Assembly (NCBI GenBank): GCA_018402665.1
Contig: JAGYIN010000001.1
Coordinates: forward strand, 310,001 to 374,000
Source: Schleiferiaceae bacterium
GTDB lineage: Bacteria; Bacteroidota; Bacteroidia; Flavobacteriales; Schleiferiaceae
Length of the DNA: 64,000 nt
Direction: 5' to 3'
Below, one piece after another: positions 2 to 47,581 of the stretch. The position numbers and the translations under genes are program-made. Position 1 is the stretch's first letter; every line of letters starts with the position of its first letter. A model generated the notes under the pieces. The model was given only the letters and a program-made list of their open reading frames with translations, searched no databases and was not told where the DNA came from.

Positions 2-397
2 CGTGAGGTGCGCGCGGGCAATCGCCTTGGCGATATTGGTGCTGCAATTCAAGAATATACGGAAAGCCGAGGTTATGGCGTTGTTCGCGAGCTGGTAGGA
101 CACGGTTTAGGAAAAAAAATGCATGAAGAACCACAAGTACCCAACTACGGTAAGCGCGGGCGAGGAAAGAAAATTCAGGAAGGATTGGTCATTGCCATTG
201 AGCCTATGATCAACCTAGGTACACAACGGATCAAACAACTAGAAGACGGCTGGACCATCCTTACAGCGGATGGGAAAAACAGTGCGCACTTTGAACACGA
301 TGTAGCCGTCGTGAACGGCGAGCCTGAAATTCTAAGTACCTTCCAATACATTTATGACGCGTTAGGTATGGAACCTGCGGAATACGAGAAACTATGA
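2..397 (+). CDS. map: Methionine aminopeptidase, type I (C-terminal part)
   Basis: C-terminal 131 residues of a methionine aminopeptidase, the cytosolic two-metal enzyme that removes the initiator Met from new proteins. The start lies left of the window. Visible family residues are GHGLGKKMHEEP (His34 and His41 of the fragment, metal and substrate contacts), AIEPM with a metal-binding Glu, and HFEHDVAVV with the last metal Glu. The reading frame is open from base 2. It ends in an ATGA overlap with the methyltransferase gene, so the two are probably co-transcribed. In many bacteria map sits in the spc operon; here it lies apart from the ribosomal block, about 12 kb from infA. Confidence 0.96.
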   Translation, partial: REVRAGNRLGDIGAAIQEYTESRGYGVVRELVGHGLGKKMHEEPQVPNYGKRGRGKKIQEGLVIAIEPMINLGTQRIKQLEDGWTILTADGKNSAHFEHDVAVVNGEPEILSTFQYIYDALGMEPAEYEKL

Positions 398-1386
398 TTT
401 CCAGCATTATGAAATGGGCCTTGGCTAAAGTGCCTCGTCCTCTTCTTATTCGATTGAGTTATTTGGTACAATGGGTTGCACCCGTGCTTTTCAAAGGCTC
501 TAGGTTTGTAGACCCCATAGACGGAAGAGGCTACAGCAGGTTTTTTCCGTACGGCTACGGCCCTAACCAGCGTGAAAATGCACTATGTCCGGGAACCAAT
601 TCATTGGAGCGTCACCGTCTCTTATGGCTCTACCTTAAAGACTATACGGACTTCTTAACCAAACCACAGAAGCTTCTTCACATTGCACCCGAACAGTGTT
701 TTTATGGTCGCTTTAAGAAAATGAAGCATCTGGACTATACGACAGCGGATCTCTTTTCACCATTGGCCGATCTTCGCTTTGATGTACAGAACATTCCGTT
801 AGAAGACGATACCTATGATACTATTTTCTGTAATCATGTTTTAGAACATGTGGACGACGACCAACAAGCCATGCGCGAACTGCGTCGTATTTTAAAGCCA
901 GGCGGTTTGGCCATCATGCAGGTTCCTCTGGACCCAGATTACGCGAAAACAGATGAAGACCCCAGCATTAAAGACCCTGCAGAGCGCGAGCGTCGTTTCC
1001 GTCAGTACGATCATGTACGACTTTACGGTCAAGATTACCCCGAGCGCTTAACTGCAGCAGGTTTCAAAGTAACCATCTTTGATGCAGCTAAAGAATTGCC
1101 GGCGGAATCGTTCTCAAAATACGCACTCCCTAAGCGAGAGTTGTTGTACGTCTGGCCGCCAAATAATACTCCGGAAACCGCGCATGATTCTGGAGGCGAG
1201 CGCAAGCGAACCCTGATAGTCTCGCTGGCGCATCGGGAAACCGCGCCCTGGGCGGGTATTTTAGTATCGGTCATGCAGTTTGCGGTTATTTCAACCAACC
1301 TGCAATCATCTGTTGCATTTTCTCTTCTTCCTCTTGAGCCAATAAAGGATCAACTAGAATACGACCACTGTGCTCATCAATCATGA
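394..1386 (+). CDS. Class I SAM-dependent methyltransferase with an abnormal C-terminal tail
   Basis: SAM-dependent methyltransferase of unknown substrate. The N-terminal 60 residues resemble a Bacteroidota family that carries either a small Cys-rich knuckle or, as here, a degenerate form (VDPIDGRGY and CPGTNSLERHR). The Rossmann core follows: LLHIAPEQCF (motif I region), FDVQNIPLEDDTYDTIFCNHVLEHV, then LRRILKPGG. From memory, homologues end soon after the equivalent of LPKRELLYV (near base 1155, about 250 residues). Here the frame runs on for about 79 more codons with no recognisable domain. Its last 100 bases are antisense to the end of the next gene. A lost stop codon is the simplest reading. 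The start overlaps map (ATGA). Confidence 0.8.
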   Translation: MISSIMKWALAKVPRPLLIRLSYLVQWVAPVLFKGSRFVDPIDGRGYSRFFPYGYGPNQRENALCPGTNSLERHRLLWLYLKDYTDFLTKPQKLLHIAPEQCFYGRFKKMKHLDYTTADLFSPLADLRFDVQNIPLEDDTYDTIFCNHVLEHVDDDQQAMRELRRILKPGGLAIMQVPLDPDYAKTDEDPSIKDPAERERRFRQYDHVRLYGQDYPERLTAAGFKVTIFDAAKELPAESFSKYALPKRELLYVWPPNNTPETAHDSGGERKRTLIVSLAHRETAPWAGILVSVMQFAVISTNLQSSVAFSLLPLEPIKDQLEYDHCAHQS

Positions 1387-44427: not shown

Positions 44428-44982
44428 TTACCTACCTGCGCGTTCCATCTCTTTTTCGTAGGTCTCTTTGAACTTTTCATAGTTGTAATCAACCATGATC
44501 TTATCGTTTTTCGAAAGTGCCTTGTAATAGTCCTTCACGATTTTCTCTCCGTCCAATTCTATCGCAATGTAGTATTTGAACTTGTCGCTAGACTGCACTT
44601 GAGTCACACGATCACAAACTACCACAGCACCACTGATGCGTTCATTGATTACCGTGCGTGAATTTTCTTCAAAACGCTCCAATACCTCTTCAACGTTATT
44701 GACTTCCATGCTCTTCACATAGTTGTCTGCGACTACTTTCATGGTACTGTTTACCATTCCAGCGAGCTCAGTACGCGCATTACTCAGCGCTTTTTTCTTA
44801 GCAACATTCATATCGGCACTTTCACCGAAACTGTAGACGCGGAACGTCTTGTTATCACTTTTAAACTCTGAACATGGCAAAACTTGTTCTATTTCACCCT
44901 TTGGCACTTTTGTTTTAGAACCACAGCTAGCTAATAATAGTCCTGCGCTGGCCACAGCCACTAAAAGGATTCTCGCTTTCAT
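44428..44982 (-). CDS. LPP20-like lipoprotein
   Basis: 184-residue lipoprotein. Signal peptide with lipobox LLASC, the lipidated Cys at residue 20. The body resembles the LPP20 fold: RVYSFGESADMNVAKKKALS, then NARTELAGMVNSTMKVVADN, and a C-terminal helical, highly charged stretch (YEKFKETYEKEMERAGR). Members are envelope lipoproteins of unclear function. It abuts the convergent glycosyltransferase with no intervening base, and its terminator lies inside that gene. Sorting to the inner or outer membrane cannot be told from the sequence. Confidence 0.85.
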   Translation of the reverse strand: MKARILLVAVASAGLLLASCGSKTKVPKGEIEQVLPCSEFKSDNKTFRVYSFGESADMNVAKKKALSNARTELAGMVNSTMKVVADNYVKSMEVNNVEEVLERFEENSRTVINERISGAVVVCDRVTQVQSSDKFKYYIAIELDGEKIVKDYYKALSKNDKIMVDYNYEKFKETYEKEMERAGR

Positions 44983-45081
44983 AATACACGGTTTTACTGT
45001 TTGTTAATTTAGGTAGGTTAAGGTACGGAGTCCTTGAAAGATTTTATCCAAAAGGCGTGCCAAAATCTACCACTTCCCTTT

Positions 45082-45464
45082 TTAGACCCATTTCTCTCGC
45101 TCCGCTTCAAAGAATTCCAACGCCCGTTCTACGACTTCATCTTGCGCAAGAAGCGCGTTGAGCACTTCGGGCACCGCAACACCGAGAGGATCTGGGTCTT
45201 CAAAAATTTCAAAAGCAACCTTTTCGCCGGTGAGTATACCTAAATCGGACATGTTTTTTTACTGATCATCATGCAACGCATGCCCGGGATATGGGAGTTT
45301 AGTCCGCATTGAATGTGCCCTTCCCCGTTAATTTTTAACACAATTCGGGTACGGTGCTTTTGAGGAAAATCCGCAATAATCCTCGTCGAAATACTCGACA
45401 CGTTGTGCGGCATGTTAGGGAACATGGGTTCTATAAAGGCTGAGCCGGTATAGAGTAATTTCAT
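45082..45464 (-). pseudogene. DUF1905/YdeI-like protein split by a frameshift at a seven-A run
   Basis: Two overlapping frames together make one protein. The first (45240-45464, 74 codons) starts MKLLYTGSAFIEP and reads RIVLKINGEGHIQCGLNSH and MMISKK, then ends after TCPI. The second (45082-45252, 56 codons) reads MSDLGILTGEKVAFEIFEDP, LGVAVPEVLNALLAQDEVVE, ERALEFFEAERE. Shifting -1 at the A run (45254-45260) joins them as MMISKKN-MSDLGILTGEKV, 127 residues. From memory this follows the DUF1905 family (ING, SKK..LGI..G..V, PE.L..LL.QD). Past the stop, the same frame continues to 45004 with two stops in a stretch resembling the family C-terminus, so the end may be decayed too. It follows the peroxidase gene by 1 base. 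A sequencing error or programmed slippage is possible. Confidence 0.6.
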
Positions 45465-45465
45465 T

Positions 45466-46530
45466 TTACCAGGGATCTGTAAATGACGTATCCGTTAAAA
45501 ATACGGGGTCTGAAAACGTCTTTAAGAAATCTAATAATCCTTGTTTTTGTGCAACAGACCAGTTCCGTCCAACGCCCACCGCTTTCATGTTTGGATCAAG
45601 CGTCGGTGATGGATGGCCGCCCATTTCATAAAAATCTAGCACCTCGGCAAGCGTCTGAAAACGACCGTCGTGCATGTAGGGGTAACTGTATTCAACATTG
45701 CGCAATGACGGGACCTTAAATTTACCACGGTCGGAAGGGTCCCCCGTAACCGCCTCACGTCCTGCGCCTACAGCATAAATGCTATCTAATCCATTGTTAG
45801 TGAATTGCAGCAGTCCGTGTGCACCCAATTGGTATCCTGTGGTCGCTAAACCGTGACAATGGAAACAATCGCCTTGTTCGTTGTTGAAAATATCAAAACC
45901 CAATTGTTCTGAAGGCGTAAACGTATAGGTACCCTGTACATACTGATCGAGCTTGCTACCCCCACTTACGATAGTACGAACGAACTGAGCCAAAGCTTTC
46001 GCGGTATGTTGTCTAGTGATAGGGTCATCCGTACCAAAAGCGTCTGCAAACAGCTCAACATAGGTGGGATCCTGGGCCAATTTCGCGATGACATCCGGCC
46101 ATTGCGCATGCATTTCAATAGGATTCACCACCGGATCCTGCACTTGATCTTCTAGACTATTTTCGCGTCCGTCCCAAAAAAAGAACTCTTGCCAAGCCAT
46201 ATTCGTTAATACCATGGCATTCACTGTACCTGTGATACCGTCAATTCCCGTAGAGTATTGAAAGGGCTCCGCAAATCCATGCTCTTGACTGTGGCACGAT
46301 CCACAACTTTGGGTATTGTCGCCAGAAAGTCTTGGATCAAAAAACAGATGACGACCCAGCTTTACACCTTCTTCAGTAAGTGGATTATCTGCAGGGACAT
46401 CGGGAGTAGGGAAATGGGATGGGTATGCTAAAGACAGTGGCGTAGGATTGTGCAATGGTTCATCGGGTCCACAGCTCGCAGCTATGAACAAAAAGACCAA
46501 TGGCACTAAAATTAACCTACTCTTCTTCAT
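45466..46530 (-). CDS. Di-haem cytochrome c peroxidase / MauG family lipoprotein
   Basis: 354-residue periplasmic protein. The signal peptide ends in a lipobox (FIAASC, Cys20), so it is membrane-anchored. Two haem c sites: CGSCHSQ after the conserved LGRHLFFDPRLSGDNTQS, and CFHCHGL in the second half. Other family features are FFWDGRENSLEDQVQDPVVN, PIEMH and VPSLRNVEYSYPYMHDGRFQ, with an axial Met candidate in that last stretch. The Met at 46530 gives the signal peptide; longer in-frame sequence upstream lies within the RluD-like gene. The start overlaps that gene by 14 bases. It likely reduces hydrogen peroxide using periplasmic electrons. Confidence 0.93.
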   Translation of the reverse strand: MKKSRLILVPLVFLFIAASCGPDEPLHNPTPLSLAYPSHFPTPDVPADNPLTEEGVKLGRHLFFDPRLSGDNTQSCGSCHSQEHGFAEPFQYSTGIDGITGTVNAMVLTNMAWQEFFFWDGRENSLEDQVQDPVVNPIEMHAQWPDVIAKLAQDPTYVELFADAFGTDDPITRQHTAKALAQFVRTIVSGGSKLDQYVQGTYTFTPSEQLGFDIFNNEQGDCFHCHGLATTGYQLGAHGLLQFTNNGLDSIYAVGAGREAVTGDPSDRGKFKVPSLRNVEYSYPYMHDGRFQTLAEVLDFYEMGGHPSPTLDPNMKAVGVGRNWSVAQKQGLLDFLKTFSDPVFLTDTSFTDPW

Positions 46531-47581
46531 CTTTATGCGGTTCAACAGCGCTCGTATAGTTTTCAAATTTACGAATGACTTCCTGCATATCCTCTGGTAA
46601 AACACTTTCATAGCGGTGTTGTTCGCCTGTTTTTGGATGCGTAAAGCCTAAACTCTTTGCGTGCAGGGCATGACGGGGACAAGCTTTGAAGCAATTCATG
46701 ATGAACTGCTTGTATTTTGTAAACGTTGTTCCTTTCAAAATTTTATCCCCACCGTAGCGCTCATCATTGAACAAAGGGTGGCCTAAATACTTCATATGAA
46801 CACGAATCTGGTGCGTTCGACCCGTTTCTAGTTTACAACTGACAACCGTTACATAACCAAAGCGCTGGAGCACCTTGTAATGCGTTACTGCATGTTTTCC
46901 TTCGCTTCCGTCTTCGAAAACTGCCATTTGTAATCGGTCGGATAGACTTCTACCGATGTGGCCTGTGATGGTTCCTTCGTTTTCCTTCACATTGCCCCAG
47001 ACAATCGCGATGTATTCACGTTGTGTGGTGCGGTCATAAAATTGCTTCGCAAGATGGCTCATGGCCAATTCTGAAGCGGCCACCACCATAACACCTGTGG
47101 TATTCTTATCTAATCTGTGAACCAAGCCAGGGCGTTCTTCGCCGCTAGATCCTATGGGTAGGTTTTCAGCCAAATACGCTAAAGCATGGACCAAAGTTCC
47201 GGTGTAATTTCCATGACCAGGGTGACAGACCAAGCCTGCTTCTTTATTCACGACAATAACGTGCTCATCACGGTACAACAAATCCAACGGAATGTTTTCT
47301 GGAATAATCTCTGTATCGCGCGGCGGATCTGCCAGCACCAATTCTACCGTATCGCCTGCCTTTACTTTATAATTGCTCTTCACAGGCAGACCATTCACGT
47401 GAATGGACGCTGCATCGGCAGCCTTTTGAATTCGACTGCGCGAAGTGTCCTCTAAAAAATTGAAAAGGAATTTATCTACGCGCAGGGGATTCTGACCTTT
47501 ATCTGCAGTAAAGCTGTGGTGGACGTACAATTCGTCATTAGAAGTACTGTCGTGCTGCTCGTCCATTAAATTTTCATCCAT
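46517..47581 (-). CDS. RluD-like 23S rRNA pseudouridine synthase
   Basis: 354 residues of the RluA/RluD family, which convert uridines of 23S rRNA to pseudouridine. The N-terminal S4 domain (about 35-95) shows LRVDKFLFNFLEDTSRSRIQ and SNYKVKAGDTVEL. The catalytic domain has LLYRDEHVIVVNKEAGLVCH, the motif HRLDKNTTGVMVVA with the catalytic Asp, LETGRTHQIRVHMKYLGHPL and HAKSLGFTHPKTGE. Two starts are possible: the ATG at 47581, or the one at 47566 that overlaps the stop of the upstream T9SS gene (TAATG). Length fits RluD better than RluA or RluC, but the target site is not certain. Confidence 0.93.
   Translation of the reverse strand: MDENLMDEQHDSTSNDELYVHHSFTADKGQNPLRVDKFLFNFLEDTSRSRIQKAADAASIHVNGLPVKSNYKVKAGDTVELVLADPPRDTEIIPENIPLDLLYRDEHVIVVNKEAGLVCHPGHGNYTGTLVHALAYLAENLPIGSSGEERPGLVHRLDKNTTGVMVVAASELAMSHLAKQFYDRTTQREYIAIVWGNVKENEGTITGHIGRSLSDRLQMAVFEDGSEGKHAVTHYKVLQRFGYVTVVSCKLETGRTHQIRVHMKYLGHPLFNDERYGGDKILKGTTFTKYKQFIMNCFKACPRHALHAKSLGFTHPKTGEQHRYESVLPEDMQEVIRKFENYTSAVEPHKDEEE

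Follow-up and report, generated by a model that had tools for sequence, protein, structure and literature searches.

Lone frameshifts confirmed by BLASTp are expected to be mostly sequencing errors rather than real mutations, according to the part of the GeneTack survey on which we draw here (PMC3711429), and the same part describes one of the closest known counterparts of the locus reported below, the frameshifted singleton pseudogenes of bacteria. A second point of comparison is offered by frameshifts in poly-A tracts of Blochmannia, for which correction through transcriptional slippage has been proposed; in both Blochmannia and Buchnera, slippage in such tracts is held to rescue frameshifted genes (PMC3017870, in the passages used here). 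For homopolymer runs, Baranov et al. find selection to be evident, in a large proportion of genomes, once nine bases are reached (PMC1088944, in the part consulted).

Our locus resembles the singleton pseudogenes in its lone, homology-confirmed frameshift, which is absent from relatives and is accompanied by further lesions, and it differs from them in nothing of kind as far as that source describes them. What it has in common with the Blochmannia genes is a run of A altered by a single base; apart from that change the Blochmannia genes keep their frame, whereas the gene described here adds a deletion and a nonsense codon. Judged against its relatives, the locus is very probably a small OmdA/YdeI-like gene that was inactivated recently and is now decaying.

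Layout of the locus and its intact orthologues

The stretch analysed, hereafter the window, comprises 64,000 nucleotides of contig 1 of a 1.95-Mb genome that is assembled into 26 contigs and is 89% complete. All features of the locus lie on the minus strand. Positions 45067–45464 hold what comparison with relatives identifies as the remnants of a single gene, whose orthologue in related species is intact, has 161 codons and is OmdA/YdeI-like. Open reading frames divide these remains into a first frame of 74 aa (45240–45464), whose stop lies shortly past a run of seven A, and a second of 56 aa (45082–45252), which has an ATG start at 45252 and ends with TAA at 45084–45082. The two overlap at the seven-A run (45260–45254), and a −1 step there fuses them as SKKN-MSDLG, just as the initial annotation had given it. 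Upstream stands an intact gene of the di-haem cytochrome c peroxidase/MauG type (45466–46611) and downstream an intact gene for a putative lipoprotein of 184 aa (44428–44982). A scan for promoters and terminators returned hits no more numerous than in shuffled sequence.

With the read-through protein as query, matches were obtained in 18 of the 25 genomes of the genus, including the window genome itself, where the match falls into two pieces. The matched stretch contains no stop in any of the 17 other matching genomes, and in all 17 the gene for the 184-aa lipoprotein adjoins the orthologue on the same contig. In the four closest relatives (G002, G017, G006 and G016) the peroxidase gene is followed directly by an unbroken frame for a protein of 161 aa, which shows that the two frames of the window are one gene and bears out the earlier proposal to that effect. 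The proteins of G017, G006 and G016 are 81–91% identical to the G002 copy, and dN/dS among the four intact relatives is 0.036–0.052 in five of six pairs and undefined in the sixth. No match was found in seven genomes. Two of these, G011 and G020, have both neighbours and no such gene between them, thus indicating that life without the gene is possible; a search for the lipoprotein gene in the other five (G018, G019, G021, G023 and G024) gave a partial match or none.

Three lesions relative to the nearest relative

The first lesion is the run itself (45254–45260), seven A followed by C in the window copy, one A fewer than in the nearest relative, G002, where a run of eight keeps the frame; the loss produces the frameshift. 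In G017, six A are followed by CAC, and the run is shorter or absent in G006, G016, G022 and G001. An ancestral run of eight is suggested by the arrangement in G017 and the shorter runs of G006 and G016: in the common ancestor of G002 and the window, the run was probably lengthened to eight through a His-to-Asn codon change, and the window lineage would then have lost one A, most likely by replication slippage.

The same pattern bears on programmed slippage, either −1 ribosomal frameshifting or transcriptional slippage joining the frames, which the initial annotation had kept as an option and which we regard as very improbable. Runs of A are slippery, a tRNA paired with AAA in the P site could shift back by one base and pair again, and the rescue proposed for genes in the two genera named above offers a precedent; the relatives, however, make a single-frame protein and none of them needs a shift, and the run is not conserved among the six relatives aligned. 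Slippery heptamers follow the rule X XXY YYZ. The zero-frame codons here read AGT AAA AAA ACA, so that no tandem slip of that form lies in phase, and the downstream RNA folds worse than its shuffles (z +1.25 and +1.72, for nested structure only, without pseudoknots). Seven A are also fewer than the nine bases from which many genomes show selection against slippage (PMC1088944), and even with the frames joined, 29 core residues would be missing from the product. A phase-variable contingency gene with the length of the A run as its switch could be read from the open frame with eight A in G002 and the closed frame with seven in the window. That run length is absent from the other five aligned species, however, and a deletion and a nonsense codon are foreign to such a switch, which leaves this explanation with next to no probability.

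The second lesion, missed in the initial annotation, is an in-frame deletion of 87 nt with its junction at 45132–45125, where the window has a single copy of GTAGAACG and G002 has two copies 87 nt apart. Loss between two short repeats is a usual mark of slipped-strand deletion. The deletion itself is plain from the alignment, and the repeats suggest that slipped-strand deletion between the two 8-nt copies took the 29 codons. The missing residues correspond to about 112–140 of the G002 protein, with ends that are ambiguous owing to the repeat; they are mostly invariant in the four relatives and fall inside the OmdA match (residues 96–144, L001 numbering).

The third lesion is the TAA at 45082–45084, which takes the place of the Gln codon present in G002 and lies five codons upstream of the natural stop of the family; a separate nonsense mutation would have cut off the last five codons. 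This natural stop is the TAG at 45067–45069, common in the alignment to G002, G017, G006 and G016. It had been counted as one of two further stops breaking up the C-terminus, a reading that does not survive the comparison, since the next stop lies beyond the gene in 3′ untranslated sequence. The preference for real decay that had been built on these stops is retained as the best reading, although the argument from them was wrong; it is better based on the internal deletion, the true nonsense codon and the excess of amino-acid changes, all measured against relatives.

The deletion keeps the frame and the nonsense codon costs only five residues, so that without the frameshift a frame of 127 codons would be open. 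Frameshift, 87-nt deletion and nonsense codon together nevertheless give the gene more than one inactivating lesion, one of the marks by which we recognize a pseudogene, and a working protein is most likely no longer made from it.

Soundness of the sequence and constraint on the gene

A missing A through sequencing or assembly error is, in our estimate, unlikely. It would make the 127-codon frame the true gene, whose product, an OmdA-like protein with an internal stretch missing, could be functional or not. Runs of A are a classic site of sequencing error. The state of the assembly, the fact that the frame stays open despite the other two lesions and the GeneTack expectation for lone frameshifts all lean the same way. 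These points were weighed against an alignment of 63,983 bases of the window to G002, which contains 71 indels inside alignments; the 87-nt deletion sits between two alignments. A crude filter was applied to the 73 G002 ORFs that reach 70 aa and were at least 60% covered, and it flagged eight. Besides the gene under study, these comprise one ORF that leaves the end of the window and six that align in a single frame by tblastn, their differences lying in extended start sites, a gap at the N-terminus or alignment gaps that are compensated locally. The A-run gene is thus the only truly broken ORF of the 73.

The window contains 22 A/T runs of at least seven bases, of which 20 fall within ORFs of 70 aa or more, so that the run alone is unremarkable. 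That a single ORF in 73 lost its frame despite these 20 runs speaks against a generally error-prone sequence, while being no proof for the seven-A run itself. The gene with the broken frame is also the one that carries the deletion and the nonsense codon, both of which would remain if the run were corrected. A repeat of 8 nt should not be long enough to make an assembler collapse 87 nt. Even with an error in the run, the gene would be damaged, since the 127-codon frame would lack an internal stretch and end slightly early.

In the same comparison with G002, a frame elsewhere in the window (394–1386) has 330 aa as against 256 aa in G002 (C4, near 114136), and similarity drops at about 1159; a stop codon has probably changed in either the window or the G002 copy.

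Decay of the gene is also the reading with which the pattern of substitutions agrees. Changes were assigned to lineages with G017, G006 and G016 serving as outgroups to the window copy and its sister G002, and the count, over 131 comparable codons in the broken gene, excludes the codon touching the run, the deleted codons and sites at which the outgroups leave the ancestral base undecided. On the window lineage the broken gene has five silent and seven altering changes, the nonsense mutation being one of the seven. The corresponding counts are 11:1 in the lipoprotein gene and 45:6 in the peroxidase gene (340 codons), a sum of 56:7 for the flanks. The difference between gene and flanks is significant (Fisher p = 0.0008, or p = 0.003 with the nonsense mutation left out); on the G002 lineage the counts are 2:3 in the gene and 47:22 in the flanks (p = 0.33). 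We take this as moderate support for relaxed constraint on the window lineage, from counts that are small and with a ratio of 2:3 on the G002 lineage as well.

Synonymous divergence from G002 is very uneven over 44428–46611, with dS of 0.09 in the pseudogene, 0.21 in the lipoprotein gene and 0.62 in the peroxidase gene. Such unevenness across three neighbours suggests recent recombination with the G002 lineage.

Family assignment and a second OmdA-type gene

The intact orthologues match the OmdA/YdeI-type family (PF13376), whereas in the window copy the domain core is gone, and Pfam returned no PF13376 match for its pieces or for the joined protein. The four closest relatives score 24.2, 24.0, 17.4 and 20.4 bits against a cut-off of 25.6. 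When the sequences are taken with neighbours, G002 and G017 come marginally over it (26.1 versus 25.6) and G006 and G016 stay below. Seven other genomes of the genus exceed the cut-off more clearly at the same locus.

The label given initially, DUF1905 (PF08922), could not be upheld, as Pfam found no match in the window pieces, in the joined protein or in the window's own genome, and the four intact relatives yielded one score, in one of them, of 16.0 bits against a cut-off of 24. Absence of DUF1905 similarity had been named as grounds for abandoning the single-gene reading; there is none in the window, yet that reading holds. Searches of NCBIfam and of PDB sequences with the intact family returned nothing (best PDB E-value 0.82), and AlphaFold2 models of the four intact relatives, with a mean pLDDT of 34.5, were not used.

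The remains of a second OmdA-type gene, which combines DUF1801 and OmdA in G017, are present in the same genome (L057:1950–2212; G000:C12, about 128.0–128.2 kb). Relative to G017, these remains lack about 201 nt in frame, between short repeats, and a further 158 nt out of frame, and one of the deletions is flanked by the short repeat TTAAAGA. The gene is intact in G017 as 206 aa, and eight of the 11 matching genomes, G017 included, align over the full 206 residues. Two OmdA-type genes are therefore broken in this genome. That both were lost by separate deletions, or that slippage at the run still gives some shortened protein, we hold to be possible at low probability.

Annotation should record a pseudogene here, in place of two small genes or a candidate for recoding. 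The locus offers a tidy case in which relatives decide among error, decay and programmed slippage, and it illustrates that an A run alone is weak evidence of recoding. If both OmdA-type genes have indeed been lost, the two unstudied proteins would seem to have shared a function that is now dispensable.
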